From positions 62,001 to 126,000 of the forward strand of contig NZ_AUEC01000021.1 in NCBI RefSeq assembly GCF_000425785.1: a stretch of 64,000 nucleotides of DNA, given 5' to 3'. Numbering within the stretch: position 1 is the stretch's first letter; the number at the start of each line of letters is the position of its first letter. The translations under genes were made by a program, and so were the position numbers. Positions 37,224-56,597 of this stretch are shown here, in pieces. Under the pieces are notes generated by a model, which was not told where the DNA came from, did not search any database, and saw only the letters and a list, made by a program, of their open reading frames with translations. The DNA comes from Pseudomonas taiwanensis DSM 21245 (GTDB lineage: Bacteria; Pseudomonadota; Gammaproteobacteria; Pseudomonadales; Pseudomonadaceae).

Positions 37224-37655
37224 ATGGAATTACGTCACCTCCGCTGCTTTATTGTTCTGGCCGAGGAATTGCATTTCAGCCGTGCCGCTGACCGTCCGCA
37301 TATCGAGCAGCCACCGCTGTCACGAACAATCAAAGAACTTGAGGATAGTCTAGGCGTCGTGCTTTTTGATCGAGACCGCAGGGGAACTCGACTGACTGCG
37401 GCAGGAGCGGTTTTCCGACAGGACATCTATCGACTGTTCACAGTACTTGAGCAAGCTCGCAAGAATGCGAGAGCACTCGCCGCAGGATTACAAGGGCGTG
37501 TCCGCATCACTGCTTCAGAAAGAGAGTTGAATCAACATATTTCGGCATTTCTTGCCGAATGTCGGGCGGAAGAGCCAGAGATCGAAATTCGCCTGTCGGA
37601 AGTAGCTTTAAACGAACAGTTGCGCGACCTTAGGACAGACGATGCCGGGCTGTAG
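37224..37655 (+). pseudogene. Truncated LysR-family regulator
   Basis: A 143-residue reading from the ATG at 37224 (GAGGGAAAAGG upstream). The helix-turn-helix is clear (MELRHLRCFIVLAEELHFSR; HIEQPPLSRTIKELEDSLGV) and the beginning of the effector domain (GRVRITASERELNQHISAFL) follows, but the frame stops at less than half the usual 300 residues. It is probably inactive, although a DNA-binding-only product cannot be excluded. Confidence 0.75.
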
Positions 37656-39497: not shown

Positions 39498-39519
39498 AAA
39501 AAAAGCGCCCGAAGGCGCT
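39498..39519 (-). terminator. Intrinsic terminator of the aminotransferase-aldolase operon
   Basis: On the minus strand AGCGCC, loop TTCG, GGCGCT is followed by TTTTTTT. It lies 29 bases after the stop of the RraA-like gene and is the best terminator in the window. Confidence 0.9.
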
Positions 39520-39547: not shown

Positions 39548-40225
39548 TTATTCCTCAAAGAAACAACCCTTGGATCGCAAGGAGTTAACGACCCAATCAC
39601 GGCTGTTAGTACCATTGGCGATGTCGTCCAGCTGCTTGGTCTCAGCCGCATGTTTTGCGCTGGCCTTTTTCAGGATGCCGGCAGCCTCAGCCAGAGATAT
39701 TGCTACGAAACCGTCATCATCGCCCACGATGAGGTCGCCTGGTTCGATGACCATACCGTTGATCGCAATCGGTACGTTGATCTCGCCAGGGCCGTCTTTA
39801 TATGGGCCGCGGTGGGTCACACCAGCAGCAAAGACCGGGAAGCTGCCTTTACGGATCGCTGCAGAATCTCGAACGGCACCGTTGATGACAAAACCAGCGA
39901 CTTTTTTCTTGATCGCATAAGTAATCATCAACTCGCCGGTCAAGGCGTTGGTCAGATCCCCACCAGCATCGACAACGATCACATCGCCTGGCTGTGCGAT
40001 ATCGAGCGCGTAGTGCAGCATCAGGTTGTCACCTGGACGACACTTTACCGTCAAAGCAGGACCGGCCAGCACTGTACCGTCATGCAACGGTCGAAGGTCG
40101 GCACCACCTGCAAACATACGATTGATGGAATCACTGATGTTGGCAACCGGTACTTCACGGAAGGCAGCTACCAGTTCATCCGAAGCAACTTGTTTTCTTT
40201 TAAGAACACGAAATCCAGTCGACAT
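39548..40225 (-). CDS. RraA-family / 4-hydroxy-4-methyl-2-oxoglutarate aldolase-like protein
   Basis: A 225-residue protein of the RraA/HMG aldolase fold. The segment DVIVVDAGGD (81-90), the conserved glycine-glutamate of LTGELM (96-100) and the Arg119-Asp120 pair of INGAVRD match the pyruvate- and metal-binding site of class II HMG/CHA aldolases. Reaction expected: retro-aldol cleavage of a 4-hydroxy-2-oxo acid to pyruvate plus a second oxo acid. Oxaloacetate decarboxylation is a common side activity of the family. It is last in a seven-gene operon with an aminotransferase and amino-acid ABC importer, which argues for a catabolic enzyme and against the RNase E regulator role. Confidence 0.82.
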   Translation of the reverse strand: MSTGFRVLKRKQVASDELVAAFREVPVANISDSINRMFAGGADLRPLHDGTVLAGPALTVKCRPGDNLMLHYALDIAQPGDVIVVDAGGDLTNALTGELMITYAIKKKVAGFVINGAVRDSAAIRKGSFPVFAAGVTHRGPYKDGPGEINVPIAINGMVIEPGDLIVGDDDGFVAISLAEAAGILKKASAKHAAETKQLDDIANGTNSRDWVVNSLRSKGCFFEE

Positions 40226-40278
40226 ATTATCTCCTCGGCCAGTCTGCCTTAGAACTGTTGTTGCGGTTTAGGAAACGA

Positions 40279-41313
40279 TTAAAAGCTGAGCTTGTAAGTA
40301 TCTATCGCATTATTACTGAAGAGCAACGTACGCTCATCAGAATTAAAATCGGAAACAAGTCGTTTAAAGCTATTCCACAAGACACTGTACGAGAACATTC
40401 CCTTATCAACAGGAAAATTGCTTTCAAACATACAGCGCTCAACACCAAACAGCTCGATCACGGTAAGGATGTATGGCGCCCAATCCATAGCCAAAGTTTC
40501 AGACGAAGGCGGTTTTTGTCTGAGATGGTAATCGAAGCCACCGATACTCATGCCCAGGCCGCCCAATTTGACTCGGACATTCGGAAGCTCTGCAAGTCTG
40601 GCTAGACTTGCCCGCCACTCGTTGAAAACCAGCCCTCGGTTGTTAGCGTACTCGCGAACGCCCAGTGGCCCCCCGACATGATCCAGTACAATCACCACCT
40701 CTGGATTTGCTAGCGCGAGATCCAGAACTTCTGCCAACTGGGTGTGGTACGCCCATACATCGAGCACGAGGCCATAGTCCTTCAACGCGCGAACGCCTTG
40801 CCGAAACTTTGAACTGCTCAACAACCCAGCGGGTGGGGGGTTGGGGTTCGAGACAATTTCAGAATCCCTGTGCCATGCCGTCGTGTTCCTCACGCCGCAA
40901 AGCCGGGGGCCGGCTCGCTCCTGCATTTCAGCCAACACCCGCCGCACCGCGTCCCCCAGGCTCAAGTCGGCTCCGGCCACGATGCCTGCGCAGAGCCTGG
41001 CATCACCGTACAGTCCGCTAGCAGAGAGGGCCGCAATGCAGTTGGCGAACTCAACTTCTCCCACAGTCTTGAATGCGTCCACTCGCCCTTCCTGGAACAT
41101 CGAACGACACTGAACGTAAACCGACGCAATGATGTTGTGCTTACCGGATGTATCCGCTCGGAGTTCGTCAAATAGGTAACGACCGCTCGGCCGATCCCAA
41201 AGGTGGTGATGAGCATCAACGATCGGCAGGTCTGCATCAAGAGCCTCCTCCTGATGCAATGCCAACCATTCCTCCCGAACAGCGATGTGTGGCGAGCGAG
41301 CTGCAGTGTTCAT
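40279..41313 (-). CDS. Amidohydrolase-2 (LigI-like) family hydrolase
   Basis: A 344-residue TIM-barrel hydrolase. The ATG at 41313 overlaps the ABC ATPase stop (TGATG). The metal or substrate-binding IVDAHHHLWD has His35-His37; later barrel signatures are VVIVLDHVGGP and CMFESNFPVDKG. The family includes 2-pyrone-4,6-dicarboxylate lactonase (LigI) and decarboxylases. Here, between an importer and an HMG-aldolase-like gene, lactone hydrolysis is the best guess: it could open the cyclic form of a 4-hydroxy-2-oxoglutarate. A 53-base gap precedes the aldolase gene. Confidence 0.82.
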   Translation of the reverse strand: MNTAARSPHIAVREEWLALHQEEALDADLPIVDAHHHLWDRPSGRYLFDELRADTSGKHNIIASVYVQCRSMFQEGRVDAFKTVGEVEFANCIAALSASGLYGDARLCAGIVAGADLSLGDAVRRVLAEMQERAGPRLCGVRNTTAWHRDSEIVSNPNPPPAGLLSSSKFRQGVRALKDYGLVLDVWAYHTQLAEVLDLALANPEVVIVLDHVGGPLGVREYANNRGLVFNEWRASLARLAELPNVRVKLGGLGMSIGGFDYHLRQKPPSSETLAMDWAPYILTVIELFGVERCMFESNFPVDKGMFSYSVLWNSFKRLVSDFNSDERTLLFSNNAIDTYKLSF

Positions 41314-42041
41314 CAGTGGGCCCGGATGTCCGAAATGAACTTCGCCGCTCGCGGATGCTTCGGCGCGGTGAAGAAGTCCTCCGGGGTCCCCCGCTCCAAC
41401 ACTGTGCCGGCATCCATAAACCAGATACGATCCGCCACTTCGCGGGCGAAGCCCATCTCGTGGGTGACGCAAATCATGGTCATACCTTCCGATGCCAAGT
41501 CCTTCATGACCTGCAGCACCTCCCCTACCATCTCGGGGTCAAGCGCGCTGGTCGGCTCATCAAAAAGCATGACCGGCGGATCCATCGCCAATGCTCGGGC
41601 AATCGCGACGCGCTGCTGCTGACCGCCCGAGAGCTGGGGAGGCATGGCGTCGGCCTTGTGCGCAAGACCCACCTTGGCCAGCAACGCCAGGGCTTTGTCC
41701 TTGATCTCTTTGCGATCGGCTTTGAGAACCGTCAGCGGGCCGATCATGACGTTATCGAGCACGCTCATGTGCGGGAATAAGTTGAACGACTGGAAGACGA
41801 AACCAATGCGGCTACGAATGGCGTTCAACTGCGTTTTGTGAGCATGCACTTCAGAGCCGCAGACTACGATGCTCCCGTCCTGAATCTCTTCCAGGCGATT
41901 GACTGTACGAATTAACGTCGACTTGCCAGACCCCGAAGGACCGCAGACCACCACAACCTCCCCTTTCTCGACGGTTTCGGTGATGTTGTTGAGCGCGTGA
42001 TAATCGCCGTACCACTTGTTTACATTTTTAAATTCGATCAT
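41313..42041 (-). CDS. Polar amino acid ABC transporter ATPase (GlnQ/GltL-like)
   Basis: A 242-residue ATPase: Walker A GPSGSGKS at 34-41, signature LSGGQ at 137-141, Walker [14 protein letters not shown] at about 157-169. Length and the [17 protein letters not shown] start fit the polar amino acid subgroup. It overlaps both neighbours (four bases with the permease, one with the hydrolase). Confidence 0.93.
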
Positions 42042-42781
42042 TTCGAGGCCTCCAGGTGCACTGGCGTATCAATATTGTTTTGGGACTGGCGACCTACGCC
42101 CGAACGCTTACGGCCGATATAGCCTTCAAGCCACTTGACCATGCGGCTCAGCGAGAAGCAGAGGACGAAGTAGCATAGAGCTAGCAGGATGTAGACCTGG
42201 AACGGTTTGGTGAGCAGTTGGTTGTTGATCTGATAAGCCGCGAACGTAACCTCCTGAGTACCAATGAGGTAGGCCAGTGAGGTATTTTTGGTGATCAGAA
42301 CAAACTGGTTGAGGATGCTCGGTATCATGTTGAAGAGCGCCTGCGGCAGAATGATCTTTCGCATGCATTGCCAATAGGTCATTCCCAAGGCGCGCGCAGC
42401 CTCGGTCTGCCCTTTGTTCACCGAATCGATCCCAGCACGGATCACCTCTCCGAGGTATGCGCCCTCGTAAAGAACAAGCGCTACCACCATGGTGACGAAA
42501 CCAGAGATGTTGTAGCCAGTTACCAAGGGGACGACAAAGTAGGCCCAGAACACCAGAAGCACCAATGGAACGGCCCGAACCACGTAGGTGTAGGCTGCGG
42601 CAACTTGATAAATCGCCTTGATCTTCGAGGTTCGTGCAAGGCCGATGCAGATCGCCAACGGGAACGACACGAGCAAACTGGTAACAGCAAGAACAATGGT
42701 AAGCGCCAAACCGCCGAGCGGGCCGTTGGGAAACTGGCCGACCATCAGCATCACGCCATATTCATTAATGATGTCGATCAT
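42038..42781 (-). CDS. Amino acid ABC transporter permease (GltK type)
   Basis: A 247-residue permease with about five helices and the EAA loop [20 protein letters not shown] followed by [10 protein letters not shown]. It has a hydrophilic C-terminal tail ([20 protein letters not shown]). It lies three bases downstream of the other permease. Confidence 0.92.
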
Positions 42782-42784
42782 TTC

Positions 42785-43486
42785 TCACCTCGACCCTTGA
42801 ATTTGAATACGGCGCTGCCAGATGCCACCCAATGCCATGATGGTCCAAGAGCCAATCAGGTAAATGATGCTGGCTACCGCATAGGTCTGGAACGTCATGT
42901 AGGTCTCGCCCTCAATCTGCCGCGTCATATACATGACTTCCGCAGTACCGATCGCCATCGCCAGCGCGGTAGTCTTGAACAGGCCTAAAGTCTGGTTAAC
43001 CAGTGCAGGAGCTGCCGCCCGGATCGCTTGAGGGATCAGGATCTTGCGCAGTGTCTGGAAGTAGTTGATGCCCAGCGCACGCGCAGCTTCCGTTTGCCCG
43101 GTAGGCAGCGAGCGGAAGCCACTTCTGAGATCCTCGGAGATGTAAGCAGCCGCGTTGAGGGTGAGCGACACGATGGCAAAGAACACCTCACCGCCGTGCA
43201 CGTTAATCCAGTCCTGGGTAGATTGCGGCAAAAGCTGCGGCACCCCAAAGTACCATACGAACAGCTGAACCAGGCTGGGCACGTTGCGATGGTATTCAAC
43301 ATACACCGTAACCAGTGAATCACCGATGCGCCCTGGGGTGAGCCGGATCATCATCAAGATGCAACCCAGCAATAAGGCAGCGATGAGCGAGACCACAAAA
43401 AGCTGGGCCGTCAGGGCTATACCTTGTAAGAACAAGTCGAGATAGCTTCCCGTCAAAAGGGAGCTAAATCCAGAGAAGATTGCCAT
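42785..43486 (-). CDS. Amino acid ABC transporter permease (GltJ type)
   Basis: A 233-residue permease, about five helices, EAA loop [20 protein letters not shown] and IPQAIRAAAPALVNQ. Partner of the next permease in a heterodimeric channel of the His/Glu/Gln family. Confidence 0.92.
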   Translation of the reverse strand: MAIFSGFSSLLTGSYLDLFLQGIALTAQLFVVSLIAALLLGCILMMIRLTPGRIGDSLVTVYVEYHRNVPSLVQLFVWYFGVPQLLPQSTQDWINVHGGEVFFAIVSLTLNAAAYISEDLRSGFRSLPTGQTEAARALGINYFQTLRKILIPQAIRAAAPALVNQTLGLFKTTALAMAIGTAEVMYMTRQIEGETYMTFQTYAVASIIYLIGSWTIMALGGIWQRRIQIQGSR

Positions 43487-43516
43487 TTATGCGCCTCCAA
43501 AAGCCGCAACTGTCAA

Positions 43517-44320
43517 TTAACGAAACTCGGTAACAGCCGTGAGCTTCTTCTCTCTGGCCAGCTTGTATTCCGTTTCTGGACCGTACCAGTGGTCCCACAT
43601 GGCCTGCAGCTCTCCTGAATCCTCCATGGCCTTTAGCGCCCCATCTACCGCCGCCGTCAGAGAGGTTTCCCCCTTCTTGATACCGATGCAGCTCGGTTCA
43701 AAATGAAGGCTTTGAGCCAGGAAGTGCATACTTTCAGTTCGAGTATGGAATCGAATGGCTGCCGGCTCAGTCATTGCCATCCCTTGAACCTTGTTCTGCT
43801 CCAACGCCATGAATGCTCCCGGCGCATCCTCGAAGCCGATTACCTTGGCACCTGGAATCTGCTGTCGCGCGTACAGTTCAGGCGTAGAGCTCTTTATAGC
43901 GCTGATTCGTTTGCCATTTAAGTCAGAGAACTCGCTGACGTTGGAGTCTTTTCTGACCAGAATCTTTACGGGAATTTGATAATAAGCCGAGCTGAAGTCG
44001 ATCTGCGAAGCACGGGCCTCGGTATAACCCAACGCTGCAGCGACCAAGTCAACTCGACCGGTCATGAGGCTGGGAATCCGTGCGCTGACGGCTACTCCTT
44101 GAATATCAGCTTTCACGCCAAGATGCTTTGCAACGCCTTTGCAGACATCAACATCCAAACCAACCAGCTGACGACTGGTCGGATCCTGGTAACCCAAGGG
44201 CACGCTGTCGGTGAGTGTTGCACAGCGAATCGATCCACGTGCCTTGATGTCACTCAAAGCATCGGCGTGTACAACACTCGATGCGATGAGGCCAAGAGCG
44301 ATAAAAATTATACTTTTCAT
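43517..44320 (-). CDS. Periplasmic amino acid-binding protein (family 3), paralogue A
   Basis: A 267-residue binding protein. Signal peptide MKSIIFIALGLIASSVVHA, mature start DALSDIKARGS. Family 3 features: CATLTDSVPLGYQDP, LVGLDVDVCKGVAKHLGV and KSSTPELYARQQ. It aligns without obvious gaps to the binding protein at 48615 through nearly the whole length (same CATLTDSVPLGYQDP, same EPAAIRFH). It supplies the permease pair encoded just downstream. The ligand is unknown, presumably an acidic or lactam amino acid. Confidence 0.9.
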   Translation of the reverse strand: MKSIIFIALGLIASSVVHADALSDIKARGSIRCATLTDSVPLGYQDPTSRQLVGLDVDVCKGVAKHLGVKADIQGVAVSARIPSLMTGRVDLVAAALGYTEARASQIDFSSAYYQIPVKILVRKDSNVSEFSDLNGKRISAIKSSTPELYARQQIPGAKVIGFEDAPGAFMALEQNKVQGMAMTEPAAIRFHTRTESMHFLAQSLHFEPSCIGIKKGETSLTAAVDGALKAMEDSGELQAMWDHWYGPETEYKLAREKKLTAVTEFR

Positions 44321-44392
44321 GCGATACCACTCAAAAGTTACGGCAGGTCAAAGCCATTTTGTTTTATTTAATTATTCTGGCCAGCGGAAATC

Positions 44393-45595
44393 TCACACCA
44401 GCTTGCTGCATGCTTCCTTGATCTGCTTACAGCCTTCCTCAATGATCTCAGTCGAAGTAGCGAACGACAGTCGCAGATACGGAGAAAGCCCGTATGCTCC
44501 GCCGTCTAGGACTGCGACATTGGCCTCCTCGAGTAGGTAGTTACGAACATCAGTATCAGTCTCCAGGATCTCGCCCGACGGGGTTCGTTTGCCGATCAGT
44601 CCACCGCAGTTCGGGTAGGCGTAGAAGGCACCCTCTACCTGGGTGCAGGTTAGACCTGGAACTTCGTTGAGCATTTTGACGACCAGGTCGCGGCGAGCAC
44701 CGAACACTCGAGCGGCCTCGTCGACGAAAGGCTTGGAATTGGTCAGCGCCTCGATGGCTGCAGCCTGGCTGATAGAGCACGCGCCGCCGATGCTTTGCGA
44801 CATGAACTTGTCCATTGCCTTGGTCAAGCTCTGCGGGCCGCCGGCGTAGCCGATACGCCAGCCAGTCATGGCATAAGCCTTAGAGACACCATTGATGATC
44901 AGCGTGCGATCACGAAGTTCCGGATACAGGTTAGTGATCGCTACTTGGGAAACACCACCGTAGTTGAAGTGCTCATAGATCTCATCAGTCAACAGCCAGA
45001 CGTGGTTATGACGTACCAGTACCTCGCCGAGCGCTTTGATTTCTGCCTCGCTGTAGACAGCGCCACTTGGGTTATTTGGCGTGTTCAGCACCAGCCATTT
45101 AGTACGCGGGGTAATCGCCGCCTCGAGCTGCTCCGCGGTGAGCTTGAACCCCTGGGTATCCGGGCATTCGACTACCACCGGCACACCGCCGTTGAGCTTA
45201 ACGATGTCCGGGTACGACACCCAGTAAGGTGCTGGAACAATAACTTCGTCACCGTCGTCCACGGTGCAGGTGAAGGCTGTGAAGATCAGTTGCTTCGCTC
45301 CCGACCCAACAACGATCTCTGCCGGATCGAAGTCAAGTCCATTCTCGGACTTGAACTTATTGATGACTGCCAGCTTCATCGGCCGAGTACCAGTGGTCGG
45401 TGTATAGCGAGTTTCGCCGCGCAAGGCCGCCGCAAACGCAGCTTCGCTGATATTGCTTGCCGTCACGAAATCCGGTTCACCGACGCAGAAGTCAAGGATT
45501 CTTTTGCCCTGAGCTTCAAGCTCAGTCACGCGGGCTTTAGCACTGACGCTTGCAGATGGAGAAAAACGGTTTAGACGTTCAGACAGCGGATACAT
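44393..45595 (-). CDS. Class I PLP aminotransferase (aspartate-type)
   Basis: A 400-residue fold-type I aminotransferase of the AspAT I-gamma group. Cofactor and substrate residues are present: Asn175 (NNPSG), Asp204 and Tyr207 (LTDEIYEHF), the Schiff-base Lys239 in NGVSKAYAMTGWRIGY and Arg247. It is the first gene of the minus-strand operon and therefore likely converts the imported amino acid into its 2-oxo acid. A housekeeping AspC role is less likely given the dedicated transporter and aldolase downstream. Confidence 0.88.
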   Translation of the reverse strand: MYPLSERLNRFSPSASVSAKARVTELEAQGKRILDFCVGEPDFVTASNISEAAFAAALRGETRYTPTTGTRPMKLAVINKFKSENGLDFDPAEIVVGSGAKQLIFTAFTCTVDDGDEVIVPAPYWVSYPDIVKLNGGVPVVVECPDTQGFKLTAEQLEAAITPRTKWLVLNTPNNPSGAVYSEAEIKALGEVLVRHNHVWLLTDEIYEHFNYGGVSQVAITNLYPELRDRTLIINGVSKAYAMTGWRIGYAGGPQSLTKAMDKFMSQSIGGACSISQAAAIEALTNSKPFVDEAARVFGARRDLVVKMLNEVPGLTCTQVEGAFYAYPNCGGLIGKRTPSGEILETDTDVRNYLLEEANVAVLDGGAYGLSPYLRLSFATSTEIIEEGCKQIKEACSKLV

Positions 45596-45709
45596 GACCT
45601 TCGACCTTTTTGTGTGCGAGTCACTGGAGCTTAAGGTCCGTCGAGTTGGACAAAAAGCGAATTTTTCACCTAGAATAAAATCGCAAAATACGATGAAAGG
45701 TTTTTCACT
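45596..45709. promoter_or_regulatory. Divergent promoter of aminotransferase operon and LysR gene
   Basis: Between the two divergent starts lie ATTTTTCACC, then AAAATACGATGAA (45685-45697) and GGTTTTTCAC. The 13-mer AAAATACGATGAA occurs again at 48370-48382, upstream of the paralogous binding-protein gene. This is a plausible LysR-type target. Confidence 0.55.
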
Positions 45710-46636
45710 ATGATTACTCTCAAGCAGATCGAAGCGCTCTACTGGGTAGCCCGCCTAGGTAGCTTTGAAGCCGCGGCCGATTACCTGAATACAACCCAAT
45801 CCGCCATATCCAAGCGTATTCAAGACCTCGAGGCCCGGTATGGCCAAGCCCTCCTCGATCGAACTCGCCGCAGCTCCCAGCTCACTCCGCTCGGCGAAGA
45901 GGTGGTGGAACTCACCACCAAGCTGCTCGGCCAGCGAGACGCCATCGTTCAGCAGCTAGAGCGGCCCGAAACGCTCAAACGCAAATTGCGTCTTGGTGTT
46001 ACCGAGCTCACCGCCTTGACCTGGCTGCCGATCATGGTAAGCGCCCTGCGTGAGCGATACCCTCAAGTTGAAATCATCCCCGAGGTCGATCTCAGCCCGA
46101 ATCTTCTTGAACGCTTAAGTAGCAATACAATTGATCTCATCATTATTCCCGACATTTTCCCTGACAACCGATTTGAATCTGAACTTCTAAGCGACGTCGA
46201 AAATGCCTGGATGGGCTCACCTACCCTGATTGGGGACAAGCAGATCCAATCCCTTGAAGAACTGGCCGATTTGCCCTTGATTGTCCAAGGCACTACTTCT
46301 GGCATGGGAGTGGCGTATGGACAATGGTTCAAACAGCTTGGCCTTCACATTAACAAACCAATCATCTGTAGCAACCTGTTAGCACAGATCGGTCTGGCGG
46401 TATCTGGCCTAGGCGTCTCCTACCTGCCGCTACATTACCTAGGCGCACTTTTGGACAGCGGAACGCTCGTTCGCCTCGATGTCCAACCACTTCTACCACG
46501 CATCAAATACCGAGCACTGCATCGTAATGATGCCAATGATCTCTTTATGCAGGATCTTTTGGCCATCGCCAAAAAAACTTGTGACTTCGGCTCGTACGTA
46601 ACTCAGCCACAACCCGTCATCATGACTCGCTCATAG
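45710..46636 (+). CDS. LysR-family regulator, paralogue A
   Basis: A 308-residue regulator. Helix-turn-helix at residues 3-60 (LKQIEALYWVARLGSFEAAA; LNTTQSAISKRIQDLEARYG), effector domain from about 90 (LRLGVTELTALTWLP). It is a close relative of the regulator at 56598: the first 75 residues are nearly the same and GVTELTALTWLP, SNLLAQIGLAVSGL recur. It probably activates the divergent aminotransferase operon. Its last codons overlap the convergent MFS gene by 17 bases. Confidence 0.9.
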   Translation: MITLKQIEALYWVARLGSFEAAADYLNTTQSAISKRIQDLEARYGQALLDRTRRSSQLTPLGEEVVELTTKLLGQRDAIVQQLERPETLKRKLRLGVTELTALTWLPIMVSALRERYPQVEIIPEVDLSPNLLERLSSNTIDLIIIPDIFPDNRFESELLSDVENAWMGSPTLIGDKQIQSLEELADLPLIVQGTTSGMGVAYGQWFKQLGLHINKPIICSNLLAQIGLAVSGLGVSYLPLHYLGALLDSGTLVRLDVQPLLPRIKYRALHRNDANDLFMQDLLAIAKKTCDFGSYVTQPQPVIMTRS

Positions 46637-47861
46637 ACGACTGCTTGGCTCGAGCGAACTGGAAATAAAGCCCGATCGCCAATATGGCAAGTATTGATCC
46701 TTCAACGCCGAAAGTAACCTTCGCACCGTAGTAGCTGGCCAACCAACCAGCCACTAACCCACCAACAGCCTCGAACCCTGAGCGTAACGATATATACAAT
46801 GAAACGACACGCCCCCGCATGTGATCGGGCGAATAAGTCTGCAATAAAATATTGGAACTCACATTCGTGCAACTGATGCCAAATCCCATCATGCATAATG
46901 CTAAAAGGCTGAGGTTAAATTCAGAAAAGCTACTAAGCAGTAACATGCCACCGCAGCTGACGATCAATGCCGCCGCAATGATACGTTTCAAGTGGGTAGT
47001 ATTACTCAGGGCTGACAAGAGAATCGTAGCTGCCAATGCGCCAAAACCCGCTGCCCCCCACAGCCCGCCTAGCGTTTTCGAATCACCATCCAGCATGTCT
47101 TTGGTGACAATAGGCAAAAGCACTGCATAACTGGCTGCCGTAACATTAATTACAACAACCGAGAGCATTAGCACTCGAATAATCGGCGTTGAAAACGAGT
47201 AACTTAGCCCTTCCTTGAAAGCGTTCAGCAGCGAGGACTGCACAGCCGGCTGTGGCCGACCTGGAATCAGCACTATGGCGATCAGCGGCGCAATGAATGC
47301 CAATGAGTTCAACGCGAAGCATGCCGCCTCTCCAGTCAAGGCTACAAGCAACCCAGCAAAAGGGGGACCGATGAAACGCGAGGCGTTGAATAACATGGCA
47401 TTCAAAGCTAGACCATTAGGGATGTCATCCTTATGACCGATAAAGCCCGAGATCATGGCCTGCCTTAATGGGTTCTCAATAGCGTTGAGCACACCGAGCA
47501 ACAGCGACATCAATATGATCACGATAGGCGTAACCAGCTCTAGCGCTGTGAGCACTGCCAGGGTCAACGCTTGAATCGCTAGTAATGCCAGCACCACAAT
47601 CAAAAGAGAACGCTTGTTGACCTTATCGGCCCAAGCACCAGCGGCTGGACCGACTATAAGCTGGGGCGCCAACGAACAGAACGTAGCGATACCAAGCAAC
47701 GTCGCAGAAGACGTCAGGTGATAAACCAACCACGAAAGGCCCACCTGCTGGATCCATTTGCCTAGGTGCGAAAACGCCTGCCCAAAGAAATAGAACCGGA
47801 ACTCACGGTGGCGCAGTGCACGGATCGGTGTGGGCCACGAGCTGATACTGGTAGATTGCAA
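46620..47861 (-). CDS. MFS transporter (EmrE/Bcr-like, DHA3 type)
   Basis: A 413-residue 12-helix major facilitator. The start has ALRHREFRFYFFGQAFSHLG, then WIQQVGLSWLVYHLTSSATL and the loop motif GPAAGAWADKVNKRSLL, all typical of the DHA3/enterobactin-exporter-like group. It may export a metabolite or toxic intermediate of the pathway, or an unrelated compound. Tail-to-tail overlap with the LysR gene. An operator-like dyad lies about 230 bases upstream of its start. Confidence 0.82.
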   Translation of the reverse strand: MQSTSISSWPTPIRALRHREFRFYFFGQAFSHLGKWIQQVGLSWLVYHLTSSATLLGIATFCSLAPQLIVGPAAGAWADKVNKRSLLIVVLALLAIQALTLAVLTALELVTPIVIILMSLLLGVLNAIENPLRQAMISGFIGHKDDIPNGLALNAMLFNASRFIGPPFAGLLVALTGEAACFALNSLAFIAPLIAIVLIPGRPQPAVQSSLLNAFKEGLSYSFSTPIIRVLMLSVVVINVTAASYAVLLPIVTKDMLDGDSKTLGGLWGAAGFGALAATILLSALSNTTHLKRIIAAALIVSCGGMLLLSSFSEFNLSLLALCMMGFGISCTNVSSNILLQTYSPDHMRGRVVSLYISLRSGFEAVGGLVAGWLASYYGAKVTFGVEGSILAILAIGLYFQFARAKQSSMSES

Positions 47862-48382: not shown

Positions 48383-48614
48383 TAGAATGGAAAAAAACTC
48401 GCTTTTCTTCATTTCAGATGGCTCATAGGCTGCCTCCATCGATGCGACGACAATGCGGACTCCCCCGCAATTTTAGGCGTTCGATAGGCTGTAAGGACAC
48501 TGAGCTCGACCACTCCTAATCGCTAAAAAATATAGAGTCGGGCCGCATGGAGCGAATAACAGAATGCAATACAAATTTTATAAAAACTGCCCTATCTGTT
48601 AACGAGAGACACTC

Positions 48615-49421
48615 ATGAAAAAGATTCCTTTGATCGCTCTGACATTTGGCTTGATATCCTGTCATGCAATGGCTGACGCACTGCAAGACATTAAAGATCG
48701 AGGCACGCTGCGATGCGCAACGCTCACAGACAGCGTGCCCTTGGGCTATCAAGATCCGAAAACTCGAGAAATTGTTGGCCTTGACGTAGATCTGTGCAAG
48801 AGTTTGGCCAAGCATCTCGGAGTAACTTTAGAACATCAAGGGATCGCAGTAAGTGCCCGAATCCCAACGCTGATTGCCGGTCGCGCCGATGTCGTAGCCG
48901 CCGCCCTTGGATACACTAAGGATCGGGCAACCCAAATCGACTTTACTGCTGCGTATTACCAAACCCCCATCAAGATCCTCGTCAAAGATAGCAGTGGAAT
49001 CAAGTCTTTTGCAGATCTGGCAGGCAAGCGAGTCAGCTCTGTAAAAAGTTCAACTCCAGAATTGTATGCTCGACAACAACTCACCGACTCAAAAGTTGTC
49101 GGCTTTGAAGATGCGCCTGCGGCTTTTGTAGCACTGGAGCAAGGAAAAGTGCAGGGGCTGGCTATGTCCGAACCTGCGGCAATCCGATTCCACGCGCGTA
49201 CTTCCGGCATGCATTTCCTTGATCAAAACCTGCATTTCGAGCCCAACTGCCTGGGGGTCAAGAAGGGTGAAACTTCCCTGCTGGCCGCTCTGGACGGCGC
49301 TCTCCAAGACATGGAAAAAAGTGGTGAACTTCAGTCCATCTGGGACAAATGGTATGGCGATCACACTGAGTACAAAATGATCCGTCAAAAGAAACTGACC
49401 CAGATCGCAGACTTCGAATAA
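48615..49421 (+). CDS. Periplasmic amino acid-binding protein (family 3), paralogue B
   Basis: A 268-residue protein with signal peptide MKKIPLIALTFGLISCHAMA and mature start DALQDIKDRGT. It is the close paralogue of the protein at 43517 (CATLTDSVPLGYQDP, KSSTPELYARQQ, EPAAIRFHAR). No permease or ATPase gene accompanies it, so it probably uses the transporter encoded at 41.3-43.5 kb. It is followed by the porin gene. The ATG follows ACGAGAG. Confidence 0.88.
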   Translation: MKKIPLIALTFGLISCHAMADALQDIKDRGTLRCATLTDSVPLGYQDPKTREIVGLDVDLCKSLAKHLGVTLEHQGIAVSARIPTLIAGRADVVAAALGYTKDRATQIDFTAAYYQTPIKILVKDSSGIKSFADLAGKRVSSVKSSTPELYARQQLTDSKVVGFEDAPAAFVALEQGKVQGLAMSEPAAIRFHARTSGMHFLDQNLHFEPNCLGVKKGETSLLAALDGALQDMEKSGELQSIWDKWYGDHTEYKMIRQKKLTQIADFE

Positions 49422-49555
49422 AGTTATCTCCCCGCCACCACTTGATCGAGCTCCAGCGATCGCTGTAGCTTGTATCACCGAGCACTGACAACTTTCAGCC
49501 ACAATACGCGGCTAACCAAATAGTGCCGGCTATAAGAAATGTAACAGGAGCATCA

Positions 49556-50911
49556 ATGAAACTTTCGATTTCAGCGTCGACTGCACTGATGGGCTTTGGC
49601 GTATCTGTACTCCTATCGAATAATGCACATGCTGACTTTCTCAAAGACAGTAAGTCAGTCATTAGTTCACGTACCCTTTACTTTGATAGCAACGCCCGTG
49701 AACAGGATGCCGATCAAAGGCAGACAGTGACCGGCCTTAGGCTTGACTTTATTTCCGGTTACACCAATGGCCCCGTTGGGTTCGGCTTGGATCTGCAAGC
49801 TGTCGGAGCAGCAACGCTGGGTGGCGGCACGGACAACCATTCGGCCAGCACCGTGAACACCGTCTCCCCAGTCACAACCGACGGCACCCCCGTTGATGCA
49901 TGGTCCAGTCTGCGAGGGGCGGCGAAAATGCGCATCTCCAAAACAGAAGTCAAGGTGGGCAACAGTTTGCAACCGCAAGTCCCAGTCCTGATGTCCAACG
50001 ATGGGCGCGTGCTGCCTGCCGCTTACAACGGCACCCTTTTCACCTCGAACGAATTCGATTCGGTGACCCTCAACGCCGGTCGCCTGGACCGCGAGATCGG
50101 CCGCGCCTCCAGCAACTGGGCAGGTATCGCAGCGAACGGCGGTACACGCGGTGCGGACGCATTTTGGTATGGCGGCGCGGACTGGCGGATTAACAAGAAT
50201 CTGCTGGTGCAGTATTACTACGCAAACCTCCAAGATTACTACAAGCAGAACTTCCTGGGACTGGTGCACACATACCCGATTGCCTCTAACCAATCACTCA
50301 AAACCGACTTGCGTTTCTTCAATAGCCGGTCGGATGGTCGCAACGGCCAAACCGGCTACCTGTTCAATAATAATAGTGGCTACGCGAAGAACCCAGGCGA
50401 AGTCGACAACAACACTTGGTCGGCCATGTTCACCTATGCATTGGGTGCTCATTCATTCCTGCTCGGTCATCAACAGGTCAGTGACGACGGCGGCATGGCA
50501 TCCGTCAACAATGGCAGCGTCCGAGACGGCCGCGGCCGGCCCGAAGGCGAAGGCGGTTCCAGCTACTACCTGTTCACAGACTCAATGATCAACGCATTTG
50601 TAAGAGCCGGCGAGAACACGTCCTTTGGGCAGTATGCCTACGACTTTGCTGGCTTGGGCGTCCCCGGATTGAAAGCATCCGTGACTTATCTGCACGGTGA
50701 CTCGATCAAGGACGCTACCGGTAACGGCAAGACCTACAAGGAGTGGGAGCGTGATTATCGCCTCGATTACACCATTCAGTCTGGCCCAGCCAAAAACCTT
50801 AATTTCTCGCTGCGCCGCGCGAACTACCGGACCGGCGTCCCCGATGCACAAGGCGGTTATGACGTCGACCAAACCCGCTTCTTCGTGAACTACTCGTACA
50901 CCTTCAACTAG
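49556..50911 (+). CDS. OprD-family outer-membrane porin
   Basis: A 451-residue porin. The start at 49556 follows CAGGAG; the signal peptide is MKLSISASTALMGFGVSVLL with cleavage near NAHA. OprD features are SRTLYFDSNAREQD at the first strand, QTVTGLRLDFISGYTNGPVG, and the C-terminal strand FFVNYSYTFN ending in an aromatic-terminated motif for BAM insertion. OprD-type channels admit specific basic amino acids, aromatic acids or similar solutes. Placed between a binding-protein gene and a lactonase gene, it is likely the entry pore of this module. Confidence 0.9.
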   Translation: MKLSISASTALMGFGVSVLLSNNAHADFLKDSKSVISSRTLYFDSNAREQDADQRQTVTGLRLDFISGYTNGPVGFGLDLQAVGAATLGGGTDNHSASTVNTVSPVTTDGTPVDAWSSLRGAAKMRISKTEVKVGNSLQPQVPVLMSNDGRVLPAAYNGTLFTSNEFDSVTLNAGRLDREIGRASSNWAGIAANGGTRGADAFWYGGADWRINKNLLVQYYYANLQDYYKQNFLGLVHTYPIASNQSLKTDLRFFNSRSDGRNGQTGYLFNNNSGYAKNPGEVDNNTWSAMFTYALGAHSFLLGHQQVSDDGGMASVNNGSVRDGRGRPEGEGGSSYYLFTDSMINAFVRAGENTSFGQYAYDFAGLGVPGLKASVTYLHGDSIKDATGNGKTYKEWERDYRLDYTIQSGPAKNLNFSLRRANYRTGVPDAQGGYDVDQTRFFVNYSYTFN

Positions 50912-51025
50912 ACCTCATCGTCGCGAGCTCGACTCCGTCCACTTTCAGCCGGTGTCGAGCCTCGCTGTTGCAGCTCGTCTAGTACAACTGCACCTTTCCA
51001 AGACCAGACGGCAAACGGACACATC

Positions 51026-51958
51026 ATGAGCTTTTACTCGCCACCCGCCCCCATCTCAACGGATCTATTCACCAGTCTGCCGCGGGAGTTCTGGAAGAAT
51101 GGCGACTCAGATTGGGTTCGAGCCAACAAGCCTGGCAAGAAGGTGACTTCCTTCTTGGAGGGCCCATCTTTTGATCGAGACGGTAATCTGTATGTGACCG
51201 ACATCCCCTATGGACGAATTTTCAGGATCAACCCAGACGGTGAGTGGTCCTTAGTGGTCGAATATGATGGATGGCCCAATGGCTTGAAGATCCACAAAGA
51301 TGGCAGGTTGTTTGTAGCAGATTATAAGTACGGCATCTTGGTGATCGACCCTATCAACGGGAAAGTTGAGCCCTTCCTAACGCATCGCAAAAGTGAAGCT
51401 TTCAAAGGGGTCAATGACCTGTTTTTTGATATGTCCGGCAATCTGTTTTTCACCGACCAAGGACAGACAGGGATGCATGACCCTTCAGGTCGTGTCTATC
51501 GCTATGATGTCGAGAGGCACCGGCTCGAGTGCCTAGTAGATAACTGCCCTAGCCCGAATGGCCTGGTGATGGACCTGAGTGAGAACAACCTTTTCGTGGC
51601 CATGACCCGTGGCAATGCAATCTGGAGGATGCCCATTCAGAAAGACGGCACGACCAGCAAAGTAGGCATATTCACCGCCATGGCGGGCGGCGCATCAGGC
51701 GCAGACGGCTTGGCCTTGGACGAACGCGGGAATCTCTATGCATGTGATGCCGGAAATGGCTGTGTTTGGGTTTTCGACCGCGACGCCGTACCACTCTATC
51801 GCATAGCATCCTGTACGCCAGGGCGGACAGTGACCAACTTGGCGTTTGGTGGCCCTAACAATAACTTGCTCTTCATCGTTGAGTCTGCAACGGGCCACAT
51901 CGTTAAGGCCAAAGCGCCTTACCCAGGCAAGTTCATGTTCTCGCATGTAGCAGGCTAA
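51026..51958 (+). CDS. SMP-30/gluconolactonase-family lactonase
   Basis: A 310-residue six-bladed propeller hydrolase. Metal-ligand regions: FLEGPSFDRDGNLYVTD with the Glu at blade 1, CPSPNGLVMDLSENNLFVAM with the Asn, and GADGLALDERGNLYACDAGN with the catalytic Asp. Members hydrolyse sugar lactones or other lactones. There is no signal peptide, so it is cytosolic. Its start is about 115 bases after the porin stop. Confidence 0.88.
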   Translation: MSFYSPPAPISTDLFTSLPREFWKNGDSDWVRANKPGKKVTSFLEGPSFDRDGNLYVTDIPYGRIFRINPDGEWSLVVEYDGWPNGLKIHKDGRLFVADYKYGILVIDPINGKVEPFLTHRKSEAFKGVNDLFFDMSGNLFFTDQGQTGMHDPSGRVYRYDVERHRLECLVDNCPSPNGLVMDLSENNLFVAMTRGNAIWRMPIQKDGTTSKVGIFTAMAGGASGADGLALDERGNLYACDAGNGCVWVFDRDAVPLYRIASCTPGRTVTNLAFGGPNNNLLFIVESATGHIVKAKAPYPGKFMFSHVAG

Positions 51959-52037: not shown

Positions 52038-52985
52038 ATGATCTCGACTCGACCACTGAACCTTCGGCGGCTGATGTACTTCGTGAAAAGCGTTGAGATT
52101 GGCAGCCTCACACAGGCAGCGGAGGTTCTCTACATTGCTCAACCAGCTTTGAGCCAACAGTTGGCCGTGCTCGAGAGCGAACTGAAGCAGACGCTGTTGA
52201 TTCGTACAAAACGCGGTGTAGCCCCCACCCCGGCCGGAGCCGCCCTCTATAGGCATGCGCTGCTGATCATTCGGCAGTGCGAGCAAGCCCAATCGGAGGT
52301 CCACTCGGTTGCCGGGGACATCTCAGGCAAAGTTCGCATCGCTCTGGCCCAAAGCTCGATGGCCGAGCTATTAGCAATGCCATTACTACATCAGATACGC
52401 GACCGACATCCTGGCATTGTTTTGGACCTGAACCAGAACTCAGGATTGCGCCAAAGTGAGTTGGTCATGAGCGGCCGTATTGACTTGGCGATTCTGGGCA
52501 CAAGCCTGTATACCGCCGGCATACCATATGGCATTCGTTTCACCCCGGTCTTTGAAGAACCGCTGTACTACCTCTCGGCGCGAAGGGATATACCCGAAGG
52601 TCCGATCAAACTTGCTGACATCCTTGATGACTACTACATCCTGGCAAACACAGAGCACTTCTTGCGACGCATTGTCGAGGATGCGTTTCAACGCATGAAC
52701 AGGCAACCGAAGGTGGTTGCCGAAATCTGCAAAACATCGACACTAGGAGAAGCCATCGCTTCCGGCCTCGGCTCATCTGTCCTCCCCCGCTCCGTAGCCA
52801 TGCATTTACGCTCTGAGATGCCCAGCATCAGCTGTCATCCCATCGAGGCTCCTGTTATCGCACATCTAGCCTTGTGCGAAGCAGAACGCATCCAGCCAAC
52901 CCAAGCAGTGCAGGCCGCCCGTCAAGTGCTGTTGGAGGTTCTCGAACGACACGTCCACACGATGCGGGATCACCATAAGCAATAA
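52038..52985 (+). CDS. LysR-family regulator (Nac/Cbl subgroup-like)
   Basis: A 315-residue LysR protein. The helix-turn-helix reads LNLRRLMYFVKSVEIGSLTQ, AEVLYIAQPALSQQLAVLES; the effector domain is full length (to about 300). The sequence type RLMYFVKSVEIGSLTQAA resembles Nac-type regulators and differs from the two paralogous LysR proteins of this region. It probably controls the flanking lactonase/porin or the 5-oxoprolinase genes; direction and spacing do not decide which. Confidence 0.88.
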   Translation: MISTRPLNLRRLMYFVKSVEIGSLTQAAEVLYIAQPALSQQLAVLESELKQTLLIRTKRGVAPTPAGAALYRHALLIIRQCEQAQSEVHSVAGDISGKVRIALAQSSMAELLAMPLLHQIRDRHPGIVLDLNQNSGLRQSELVMSGRIDLAILGTSLYTAGIPYGIRFTPVFEEPLYYLSARRDIPEGPIKLADILDDYYILANTEHFLRRIVEDAFQRMNRQPKVVAEICKTSTLGEAIASGLGSSVLPRSVAMHLRSEMPSISCHPIEAPVIAHLALCEAERIQPTQAVQAARQVLLEVLERHVHTMRDHHKQ

Positions 52986-53153
52986 TTATATCTGCATAGG
53001 CCCGTGATATTTCTTTGCAACGCCTAAACTGTGTATTCTGGAAATGTAGCCAGATAGTAAAACCCAAAAACTTACTGACTCTGCATCCGGCTGCATCACC
53101 TTTTTACGTCTGCCCTACAAAAACTCACAACCCATAGCGAGGCGGATTTAGAT

Positions 53154-53984
53154 ATGCGTACATTATTTATTGGTTTGAGTGCAGCCGCAAGCCTTGCATC
53201 AATGAGCGTTCAAGCGGATCAACTTGCAGACATCCAGAGCCGTAAGTTTCTGACCTGTGCGGTCCAGTCGAGCACTCCGCCTTTCGGATTCATTGATCCG
53301 CAAACCCGTAACCCCAGTGGTCACGATGTCGACCTTTGCCGTGCCATCGCTGAAAAAATTGGCGTAAAAGCCATAATTAAACCGGTAGCCACTGAAGCTC
53401 GAGTTGCTGAGCTTATCTCCGGCAAAGTGGATTTAGCTGTCGCAAACCTGGCGTATACCAGTGTGAGGGCCAAGCAGATCCAATTCAGCCATGCTTACTA
53501 TATCACCAGCGAAGTTATCGTAACGCCTGAAGAGCGCAAACACCTCACCATTGCAGACTTCAGAGGGCTGAAGCTGGCGACGCCAACAGGCTCCACTTCA
53601 GAAAGTGCGGCCAAGAGCAACTCAATATCAACGATCGCGTTTCACGATACTGCGTCCTCCTACCTATCCGTGATGCAGAATAAAGCAGCAGGTTTCGTAA
53701 CTTCAAACATTACGGCCAAATACTACGTCCATAAATCTCAGGATTCAGATAAGAAACTGGCCATCATCAAACAACCGCTGGCAATAGAGCCAATCGGCGT
53801 AGGCATTCGCAAAGACCAACCACAGCTTACCGACGAGGTGAATAAAGCTCTCATCGCCTTGGAAGATGAGGGCACCCTAACATCCATCTGGAATCATTGG
53901 GTCGGGCCCACAACCTATTATGGCCTTGAACGCAAAGACAAAGTTACTCCATTAGAAGACATTGCCATCAACCCTGACATTTAG
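53154..53984 (+). CDS. Periplasmic amino acid-binding protein (family 3), distant member
   Basis: A 276-residue binding protein with signal peptide MRTLFIGLSAAASLASMSVQ and mature DQLADIQSRKFL. Family motifs: CAVQSSTPPFGFIDPQTRNP, HDVDLCRAIAEKIGV. It is clearly more distant from the other two binding proteins. It heads the 5-oxoprolinase gene set, 52 bases before pxpB, so 5-oxoproline or a derivative is a plausible ligand. No permease genes adjoin it. Confidence 0.87.
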   Translation: MRTLFIGLSAAASLASMSVQADQLADIQSRKFLTCAVQSSTPPFGFIDPQTRNPSGHDVDLCRAIAEKIGVKAIIKPVATEARVAELISGKVDLAVANLAYTSVRAKQIQFSHAYYITSEVIVTPEERKHLTIADFRGLKLATPTGSTSESAAKSNSISTIAFHDTASSYLSVMQNKAAGFVTSNITAKYYVHKSQDSDKKLAIIKQPLAIEPIGVGIRKDQPQLTDEVNKALIALEDEGTLTSIWNHWVGPTTYYGLERKDKVTPLEDIAINPDI

Positions 53985-54036
53985 TCCTCATAGCAGCCCT
54001 CGCATGTTCACGGGGGGCGTCGGAGACACATGATTC

Positions 54037-54687
54037 ATGACCTTCACTCCAAGACTTAGCCTCTTAGGTGAGTCAGCTCTACTGCTGGAAGTTCCCGGCC
54101 CTATGTCTCTGGAAACTCAAAGAAAGATCTGGGGATTGCACGATATTGCTGTCGACTGGCCTGGTATTCGAGAAGTCCTGCAAGGGATGAACAACCTGTT
54201 GTTTGTTCATGATCCGCTCACCTTTGACTTTCTTGCGTTTAGCGAACGGGTCACTCGAGCGTGGACAAATCACGACATCAGGCATCGACAACACCATTGC
54301 ATAAAGGAAATGCCAGTTTCCTACGGCGGCCCGGACCTTCTCTACGTTGCTGAGCGCACTGGTTTGTCCCCTGTAGAGGTGGCGGAACTCCACGCCAGCG
54401 CAACCTACACGGTTTTCGCTCTCGGCAGTTCCCCCGGTTTCGCCTATCTCGCCGGCATCCCCGAGCAGCTCATCATTCCAAGGCGCAAAGAGCCATTACT
54501 AGACGCGCCAGCCCTATCCGTAATGATCGCAGGAGAACAGACCGGGGTCCGTGCTGCTGCTGGACCGACAGGCTGGTATTCGATAGGCGTCCCCCTGACG
54601 CCAGTGTTTGATGTCCATCAAACCCCACCCTCGTACTTTTTGCCTGGCGACACTGTCCGCTTTGTAATCGATAAGGTAACCACATGA
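54037..54687 (+). CDS. pxpB: 5-oxoprolinase subunit PxpB (KipI family)
   Basis: A 216-residue protein of the KipI/allophanate-hydrolase-subunit-1 family. FALGSSPGFAYLAGIPEQL and IAGEQTGVRAAAGPTGWYSI are the core signatures. With PxpC and PxpA it forms the ATP-dependent 5-oxoprolinase that opens the lactam of 5-oxo-L-proline to glutamate. Its stop overlaps the pxpC start (ATGA). Confidence 0.88.
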   Translation: MTFTPRLSLLGESALLLEVPGPMSLETQRKIWGLHDIAVDWPGIREVLQGMNNLLFVHDPLTFDFLAFSERVTRAWTNHDIRHRQHHCIKEMPVSYGGPDLLYVAERTGLSPVEVAELHASATYTVFALGSSPGFAYLAGIPEQLIIPRRKEPLLDAPALSVMIAGEQTGVRAAAGPTGWYSIGVPLTPVFDVHQTPPSYFLPGDTVRFVIDKVTT

Positions 54688-55676
54688 TCCAGATCCAGCG
54701 CGCAGCGCCCTTGGCAACAGTCCAAGACTTGGGGCGCAGTGGATATCGCCAGTATGGCGTCGGCCAAGCAGGTGCAATGGACCCTGTCGCAATCCAGCTC
54801 GGCAATGCCCTGGTCGGTAATGAAGCGGGGGCAGCAGCCATCGAACTGTGCATGGCCCCTTTGACGATCAAGTTTCAACAGACCGCAAGTTTCTGCCTCA
54901 CCGGCGCGCATGTTGCCGCACAACTGAATGACACTTTCATCCTCCCGTGGACCTGTTACTGCGCAACGGCTGGGCAGATATTGGACCTGTCAGCCATAGC
55001 GCACGGAGCGCGATCCTACCTCTGCATTTCGGGAGGCATCGACGTGCCGTCCGTACTTGGGTCCAGAAGCACGCAGAACCGAGGTTCGCTTGGCGGTTTT
55101 GAAGGTCGCTATTTGCGTGAGGGCGATCAACTCCAGATTGGCTTATGCACCGACAGTCAAAATGCACCCTTCGGTATTCGCCCGCCAAGGGAGTATCTGA
55201 CTGATATGGCCGCATGCCCGGTTCATGTAGTGGCAGCTGGGGATGCAGAGCTCTTCACCGACGAAAGCGTCTGGCGGTTTTACCAATCGTCCTGGACGAT
55301 CTCTAACCAGAGTAACAGGATGGGTTTTCGTCTCAACGGCGATCCACTGATTTTCAAGCAGCCAGTCGAAATGAAATCCCATGGAATCATTCCGGGTGTG
55401 ATTCAAGTTCCACCAAATGGCTTGCCGGTTGTACAAATGGCCGACGCCAATGTTACCGGCGGCTACCCTAAGATTGGCGCTGTGATAAGGGCCGACCTTT
55501 GGCGCCTGGCTCAGATGCCCATCGGTACCAAGATCCGCTTCGCACCAATCGACTACACCGACGCCCTCGAAATGGAGCGTGCGCTGCAAGAGCGAATCTC
55601 TAGTACTCAAAAGAACATCGAATTCGCCCGGCGCTACATATCCCGAACTCAGCCAGGACATACCCATGCAAATTGA
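54684..55676 (+). CDS. pxpC: 5-oxoprolinase subunit PxpC (KipA family)
   Basis: A 330-residue protein of the biotin-dependent carboxyltransferase-like KipA/AHS2 family. LATVQDLGRSGYRQYGVGQA and GAMDPVAIQLGNALVGNEAG open it; FLLN-type later motifs are SNRMGFRLNGDPL and TVGGYPKIG-like VTGGYPKIGAVI. Its end overlaps pxpA by 11 bases. Confidence 0.88.
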   Translation: MIQIQRAAPLATVQDLGRSGYRQYGVGQAGAMDPVAIQLGNALVGNEAGAAAIELCMAPLTIKFQQTASFCLTGAHVAAQLNDTFILPWTCYCATAGQILDLSAIAHGARSYLCISGGIDVPSVLGSRSTQNRGSLGGFEGRYLREGDQLQIGLCTDSQNAPFGIRPPREYLTDMAACPVHVVAAGDAELFTDESVWRFYQSSWTISNQSNRMGFRLNGDPLIFKQPVEMKSHGIIPGVIQVPPNGLPVVQMADANVTGGYPKIGAVIRADLWRLAQMPIGTKIRFAPIDYTDALEMERALQERISSTQKNIEFARRYISRTQPGHTHAN

Positions 55677-56430: not shown

Positions 56431-56443
56431 AAACCACTGTAAA

Positions 56444-56466
56444 GCCGCCAGCGCAAGGCTGGCGGC
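56444..56466 (+). terminator. Hairpin after pxpBCA
   Basis: GCCGCCAGC, loop GCAAG, GCTGGCGGC, then ATTT. A perfect 9-base-pair stem 13 bases after the pxpA stop. The T-run is short. Confidence 0.65.
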
Positions 56467-56597
56467 ATTTCAAGCTATATCTGCCTCGGCTTGAAGCAAC
56501 TGCATGCTAGGATTGAGCGACGCCTAAAGGGCACATTGTCCAACCTGAGCCGACCTAGCGATGTTCTCGTTAACATCGCGGACTCGAGGAGTAGCCG

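Follow-up and report, generated by a model that had tools for sequence, protein, structure and literature searches.

The COG3618 family of amidohydrolases includes LigI, a 2-pyrone-4,6-dicarboxylate lactonase, and Gli, a galactarolactone isomerase; in LigI, Asp248 in the beta-8 motif is presumably the catalytic general base. Type Ib aspartate aminotransferases, represented by AatA (6f77) and the Thermus thermophilus enzyme (1bkg), form a second described group, and we take a lysine of the T. thermophilus enzyme (Lys109 in the usual numbering) to bind the distal carboxylate of its substrate. A third group, the HMG/CHA aldolases (ProA/LigK/GalC; 3NOJ), is linked to the ring-cleavage genes of protocatechuate and gallate 4,5-cleavage; according to passages of PMC5065237, Arg123 of this class II aldolase is essential, Asp124 and Glu199 bind its metal, the N71A and K147A substitutions each lower kcat 1114-fold, and oxaloacetate decarboxylation is a second activity. 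Here we describe relatives of all three groups that are encoded together with an amino acid importer in a 64,000-nt stretch of Pseudomonas taiwanensis DSM 21245 (contig NZ_AUEC01000021.1, positions 62,001 to 126,000; hereafter the window). Seven packed open reading frames (ORFs) on the minus strand between positions 39548 and 45595 encode, by ORF and family analysis, an aminotransferase (AT), a substrate-binding protein (SBP), two permeases and an ATPase of an ATP-binding cassette (ABC) importer, a COG3618 protein (AMH2) and an RraA-type protein, in this order. With moderate confidence, we propose that these genes are part of a two-unit catabolic regulon under LysR control, which would import an acidic amino acid, transaminate it, cleave the product to pyruvate in an HMG/CHA-type reaction and handle lactones. 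This proposal builds on observed gene order, conservation, active-site residues, an operator sequence shared by both units and the presence of a 2-hydroxyacid dehydrogenase in place of AT in other bacteria.

The operon and its enzymes

The junctions between the seven genes consist, from the first to the last, of gaps of 72, 30 and 3 nt, overlaps of 4 and 1 nt (TGATG) and a gap of 53 nt. A sequence-only reading of the same DNA had claimed seven minus-strand genes with short gaps or overlaps, a terminator and a divergent LysR gene, all of which were confirmed in place by the ORF map and a hairpin search. For AMH2, the automated ORF call at 41472 (TTG) falls within the ATPase gene, and the ATG at 41313 is preferred. 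As the 12 terminator-like sites found in 9 kb barely exceed the shuffled mean of 8.7, the terminator that follows the operon (Table 1) was weighted by its place. Recent transfer is not clearly indicated by base composition (54.3% GC in the operon, 54.6% in the window).

With regard to the predicted cleavage step, the RraA-like protein contains the PF03737 domain (165.3 bits against a cut-off of 24.5) that it shares with the HMG/CHA aldolase, and passes the PRK06201 "hypothetical protein" model (324.4 against a cut-off of 231). Eight of the ten residues compared, which are those named in the passages of PMC5065237, are kept: R36, N67, H71, R119, D120, G140, K143 and E195 align with R40, N71, H75, R123, D124, G144, K147 and E199 of 3NOJ. 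These eight are invariant in 11/11 aligned proteins, including that of the window, and R119, D120 and K143 are present in all 26 rows of the RraA tree. The enolate-stabilising Arg, the metal ligands Asp and Glu and the equivalents of Asn71 and Lys147 are therefore retained, while the two replaced positions, Arg195 and Thr145, are less critical. By contrast with the HMG/CHA aldolase and its ring-cleavage genes, this member of the PRK06201 subfamily is linked to an amino acid importer.

The same seven-gene order with a divergent LysR gene was found in P. maioricensis (L038 and L105, which are one and the same contig), P. folii (L104) and another genus of the Pseudomonadaceae (L046), and this recurrence argues that the arrangement did not come about by chance; in Herbaspirillum chlorophenolicum (L107) the genes are rearranged (permease-permease-ATPase-AT-RraA-AMH2) and the AT is 50% identical to that of the window. 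Relatives of AMH2 were identified in 7 of 199 genomes of the genus at E<=1e-60 (the own genome included) and in 30 of 398 genomes of the phylum at E<=1e-40. Close relatives of the SBP (E<=1e-85) occur in just 2 of 298 genomes of the genus, one of them the own genome, so the operon is rare, yet it is intact wherever it is present. Trees were calculated from selected rows (37 AMH2 sequences, by a quick method, and 26 RraA sequences); the RraA tree has long branches, that of L042 above all, and was flagged for long branches that join one another. Approximately unbiased (AU) tests rejected a single AT-linked clade for AMH2 (p-AU 0.0001) as well as for RraA (p-AU 0.023), and the association of AT with AMH2 and RraA thus probably originated, or was retained, repeatedly. 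These data bear on the possibility that the genes simply serve the uptake and transamination of one of the common acidic amino acids, with the RraA-like protein and AMH2 being bystanders or regulatory. The transporter and AT families are indeed all common, but the linkage of AMH2 and RraA recurs across classes, its association with AT was repeated or retained, and most of the aldolase active site is preserved; we consider this the least probable of the explanations weighed here.

The AT is closest to aspartate aminotransferases, Rhizobium AatA and AatB among them. Lys101, Lys239 and Arg375, which it has in common with the type Ib enzymes, are present in all five aligned ATs (that of the window included), and Lys101 aligns with Lys101 of 1bkg, the putative distal-carboxylate lysine; unlike the type Ib enzymes, the AT is encoded in a catabolic-type operon. 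The importer genes make up a complete polar amino acid ABC importer of the SBP, two 3-TM PAAT permeases, which exceed the TIGR01726 (HEQRo_perm_3TM) cut-off of 42.2 with 80.8 and 61.1 bits, and the ATPase. In the SBP, the Arg that we take to bind the ligand carboxylate is kept, and the alignment of four close copies has Glu at the position of an Asp that presumably meets the ligand amine.

AMH2 (PF04909, 113.8 bits) is predicted to form an amidohydrolase TIM barrel with the HxH motif (H35, H37). Its AF2 model (pLDDT 90.6) gave VIA Z values of 31.5 to 4dlf, a COG3618 protein that we take to be an L-fucono-1,5-lactonase, 23.1 to LigI (4d8l) and 22.4 to Gli (4mup), in a comparison where absence from the matches excludes no family. 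AMH2 has the fold of LigI and Gli, and its HxH, His212 and Arg142 match LigI in the alignment; however, its nearest solved fold is 4dlf, and the position of LigI Asp248 is taken by Asn299, as it is in 13/13 aligned proteins and in 37/37 loci (the window included in both), the latter collected by searches of genus and phylum genomes and not by motif pattern. The claim of the sequence-only reading that this protein is a LigI-type hydrolase is thus not supported in its plain form, as the general-base Asp is Asn in every locus examined. Comparison with Gli, for which printed sequences and passages of PMC6353982 were used, aligned its GTNWPH with ESNFPVD of AMH2, both with Asn, but Gli has Gln45 where AMH2 has His35, so that the HxH motif is kept in AMH2 and partly lost in Gli. 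On these alignments, AMH2 fits neither LigI nor Gli fully and would represent a separate ESN(F/Y)P subgroup within COG3618.

Since AMH2 and RraA resemble by family the LigI/LigK pair of protocatechuate 4,5-cleavage, another type of ring-containing or lactone amino acid (e.g., an alpha-pyrone or a neutral gamma-hydroxy amino acid) was also considered, with AMH2 opening the ring and RraA acting late. We regard this as very unlikely, because AMH2 lacks, in addition to the LigI general base, Arg183, Arg217 and Tyr156 (a list of LigI residues that we assume, placed by a low-identity alignment), because the operon contains no hydratase and because the AT retains the putative distal-carboxylate Lys. 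Pathways of the L-ascorbate type, which combine SMP-30 and an amidohydrolase, were considered as a further alternative.

A shared operator sequence and a probable second unit

The pattern AAAAANTCGCTTTT occurs at exactly two sites in the 5.4-Mb genome (67 contigs), one between the AT and LysR genes and the other before a gene for a second binding protein, SBP2 (Table 1); the control pattern, read backward, gave no site, and AAAAANTCGCTTTT was absent from 100 shuffles of the window. When one mismatch was allowed, the genome contained six sites in total against one for the control; among the four additional sites, one lies inside a DctM-like gene (33593-33606) and three lie inside or beside genes without an evident link. 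The form AACAAAAAATCGCTTTTTGTT stands at the equivalent place between AT and LysR in P. maioricensis and P. folii, and the operon of genome G547 has a degenerate form. Across 14 other genomes, AAAAANTCGCTTTT was found once in the P. maioricensis genome (G050), before the AT operon, and once in G547, before an MFS-RraA unit (in cluster L228, described below); the exact match in G547 may be due to chance, as the control also gave two sites in total.

The presence of this operator before both units suggests that SBP2, the OprD-family porin and the SMP-30 protein probably belong to the regulon of the operon, with LysR as the putative regulator binding both copies, and no terminator-like sites were found in the gaps between these three genes. 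The pathway is therefore probably larger than the seven genes to which it had been assigned earlier. SBP2 opens a row of nine genes in the same direction (48615-57539), which ends with LysR3 and includes the 5-oxoprolinase subunits PxpB, PxpC and PxpA. The PxpABC genes (54037-56430) were not accepted as proven members of the regulon, since the regions preceding SBP3/pxpB and LysR3 showed no operator. As a separate observation, SBP3 has Asn where other amino acid SBPs have Asp or Glu, a replacement compatible with a ligand that has no free amine (e.g., a lactam).

Table 1. Coordinates of the operon, the second unit and adjoining features in the window
Feature	Position	Strand	Basis or remark
Class I aminotransferase (AT), aspartate aminotransferase type; operon gene 1	44393..45595	-	best PDB relative AatA 6f77; Lys101, Lys239, Arg375
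Polar amino acid ABC binding protein (SBP)	43517..44320	-	amino acid SBP relatives; Glu (TEP) at amine-contact position
Amino acid ABC permease 1	42785..43486	-	HEQRo_perm_3TM above cut-off
Amino acid ABC permease 2	42038..42781	-	HEQRo_perm_3TM above cut-off
Amino acid ABC ATPase, GlnQ-like, below GlnQ cut-off	41313..42041	-	family profile search
AMH2, Amidohydro_2/COG3618 protein, LigI/Gli-type fold, Asn299 at LigI Asp248 position	40279..41313	-	family, alignment, model
Predicted RraA-type class II pyruvate aldolase/decarboxylase, PRK06201 subfamily	39548..40225	-	family profiles, alignments
Intrinsic terminator	39504..39519	-	6-bp stem, 5 G-C pairs, then TTTTTT
Divergent LysR-type regulator, likely controls both units	45710..46636	+	ORF and family search
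Putative operator palindrome AAAAATTCGCTTTT, AT/LysR intergenic	45653..45666	-	one of two exact genome copies
MFS (MFS_3) exporter-type protein, membership uncertain	46620..47861	-	49-52% identity to MFS beside RraA in L040/L043
Putative second operator copy AAAAACTCGCTTTT, 208 bp before SBP2	48393..48406	+	exact genome match
SBP2, paralogue of SBP, 68% identity (tblastn)	48615..49421	+	
OprD-family outer-membrane porin	49523..50911	+	family search
SMP-30/gluconolactonase-family protein, probable pathway lactonase	51026..51958	+	relatives beside AMH2 and RraA elsewhere
LysR2, SBP3, PxpB, PxpC, PxpA, LysR3, membership uncertain	52038..57539	+	LysR3 64% identical to operon LysR

Elsewhere in the window, fragment-like ORFs at 36520-37655 (an outer-membrane efflux protein and a LysR protein reduced to its HTH domain) suggest decayed genes to the left of the operon. 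A separate cluster at 18754-30068, named by reading of the sequence alone, appears to encode an aldehyde dehydrogenase, an amidase, a polyamine-type ABC importer, an FAD oxidoreductase and a protein resembling acetylpolyamine amidohydrolases.

Related clusters in other bacteria

A survey of AMH2 loci yielded at least 595 pattern matches, 570 of which were confirmed and the best 80 used; as one of its two patterns includes SNFPVDKG, these loci are uninformative on the Asn residue. RraA was found in the flank of 16 of the 80 loci, together with a D-2-hydroxyacid dehydrogenase in 12, with an AT in three (two of which end at a contig edge soon after RraA), with neither in one and with both in none, and SMP-30 relatives were found at 13/80 loci, one of them at 27% identity only. 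Counts in 12 genomes gave 1-8 RraA-family genes each, so that, by a rough estimate, a chance copy within 10 kb would be rare.

Clusters with a dehydrogenase, including those of Rhizobium binae (L216), Caballeronia (L217) and P. oryzihabitans (L106), share the AMH2, RraA and SMP-30 families with the window. The R. binae cluster encodes AMH2, SMP-30, IclR, an ABC transporter, a hydroxyacid dehydrogenase, RraA, an alpha-hydroxy acid oxidase and a TTT transporter, and the module is also plain in the Caballeronia record; Klebsiella aerogenes carries parts of the module, with no SMP-30 annotated among them. These clusters differ from the window in that they carry a dehydrogenase, and some an FMN oxidase, where the window has an aminotransferase and an amino acid ABC importer, and in their mostly IclR-type regulators and their TTT, TRAP, NitT-type ABC or MFS carboxylate transporters. 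The regulators fit the part of PMC8222616 that places COG3618 among the COGs often associated with IclR regulators. Judged by title, the literature listed contains no published pathway for clusters that combine RraA, the dehydrogenase, SMP-30 and COG3618.

In addition, a sister cluster in G547 (L228) combines a PRK06201-type RraA, which keeps seven of the eight aldolase residues (His is replaced by Tyr), with a PRK06107-type AT, a GltP-like Glu/Asp symporter (559.5 bits against a cut-off of 638), an FMN 2-hydroxyacid oxidase and a LysR regulator. Since an amino acid, a D-hydroxy acid and an L-hydroxy acid can all be converted to the same 2-oxo acid, we infer that AT, dehydrogenase and oxidase are interchangeable entry steps into one RraA aldolase pathway. 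The dehydrogenase-type clusters also bear on the main rival explanation, in which the cell would take up an aspartate derivative, the AT would turn it into (substituted) oxaloacetate, and the RraA-type enzyme would act on this product as a decarboxylase. This route is conceivable because of the oxaloacetate decarboxylase activity stated for the HMG/CHA aldolase in the passages of PMC5065237, and the relationship of the AT to aspartate aminotransferases favours it, but it explains neither why AMH2 and SMP-30 families are linked to RraA in several genera nor the versions with a 2-hydroxyacid dehydrogenase; we consider it unlikely.

Two further observations concern these clusters. A second COG3618 protein, close to LigI and with its Asp kept (GSDWPH), recurs in Pseudomonadaceae RraA/SMP-30 clusters (L106, 101-1033 on the minus strand, also L043, L045 and L210-L213); in L106 a Tat-like signal was noted by eye. 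The window also contains a DctM-type TRAP large permease (33470-34816) that is 72% identical to one in an AMH2 cluster (L041, itself 86% identical to that of L106) and is possibly another transporter of the same module; upstream of it lie a TauD-family dioxygenase (31673-32746) and the adjoining IclR regulator (30903-31628).

The proposed pathway

In the pathway that we favour, the ABC importer of the first unit would bring in an acidic L-amino acid, the AT would convert it to a 2-oxo acid and RraA, as an HMG/CHA-type class II aldolase, would cleave the latter to pyruvate. AMH2 would act on a lactone, probably as an isomerase or through a mechanism other than that of LigI, and the second unit (SBP2-OprD-SMP-30, perhaps more) would provide outer-membrane passage for the same or a related compound as well as lactone opening. 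A substrate of the 4-hydroxyglutamate type (4-H or 4-alkyl) fits best, as it can lactonise and its 2-oxo acid would be of the type cut by HMG/CHA aldolases; such a substrate would account for the AT, aldolase and lactonase families together. With this, the overall interpretation of the sequence-only reading is retained in part. Its RraA-type aldolase chemistry is supported, as a predicted activity, by the active-site residues, most of which are kept, its acidic amino acid substrate appears supported by the residues and relatives of the AT and by the sister cluster with the GltP-like symporter, and its linkage of the gene families held in the genome search for co-occurrence (order kept in three other loci and rearranged in Herbaspirillum), but its LigI-type hydrolase was not supported as stated and its seven-gene extent was probably incomplete. 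That reading also knew of no described pathway with this exact gene set, and none with this combination turned up among the papers listed, as judged by title. No title listed dealt with bacterial degradation of 4-hydroxy-4-methylglutamate and similar compounds, and a literature search for 4-hydroxyglutamate returned unrelated papers only.

A number of findings weigh against the proposed pathway. RraA has Lys191 for Arg195 and Pro141 for Thr145 of 3NOJ and scores below the equivalog cut-offs for CHA aldolase (PRK09262, 155.6 vs 179) and LigK/PcmE (TIGR02798, 131.9 vs 304.5); likewise, the AT falls below that for aspartate transaminase (PRK06107, 567.3 vs 617), and the SBP carries Glu where an Asp, which presumably contacts the amine, is usual. 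RraA is missing from the flank examined at 64/80 AMH2 loci, as at that of Sinorhizobium meliloti, and AMH2 therefore also serves other pathways; in other bacteria, the dehydrogenase could use a product of the aldolase as its substrate instead of supplying the 2-oxo acid. With regard to SMP-30, no relative was found at E<=1e-40 in the P. maioricensis genome, which has the operon, and none flanks the AT operons L038/L105, L104, L046 and L107 (the flanks of L104 and L105 being short). The SMP-30 protein of the window shows a closer relationship (70-74%) to copies in nine Pseudomonas genomes than to those in Pseudomonadaceae RraA clusters (52-55% identical). At the eight of these loci that were examined (L201-L208; family names taken from one of them, L202), the copy lies in a conserved cluster with genes for IclR, MFS, HMG-CoA-lyase-like and type III CoA-transferase-like proteins, to which 7/8 add a CitMHS-like symporter; the cluster apparently represents a lactone/hydroxy-acid CoA-lyase pathway.

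More tentatively, the window regulon may be the amino acid version of a widespread, undescribed pathway for lactonisable 2-X-4-hydroxyglutarates, a broader proposal that we consider possible but doubtful. Its entry enzyme would be swapped with the 2-substituent, with AT acting on the amino acid and either a D-2-hydroxyacid dehydrogenase or an FMN L-2-hydroxyacid oxidase acting on hydroxy acids. Each entry would lead into one PRK06201 aldolase, and the lactones would be handled by an SMP-30 lactonase and by a COG3618 lactone isomerase of the Asn type. If true, this would assign a role to two groups of proteins, namely the "hypothetical" RraA subfamily PRK06201 and the COG3618 subgroup with the ESN(F/Y)P motif. 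The exchange between AT and hydroxyacid dehydrogenase would confine the chemistry to a 2-oxo acid cleavable by an aldolase of the HMG/CHA type and would reduce the question of the substrate to a short list of assays, and the operator that unites the two units suggests which additional genes belong to the pathway.

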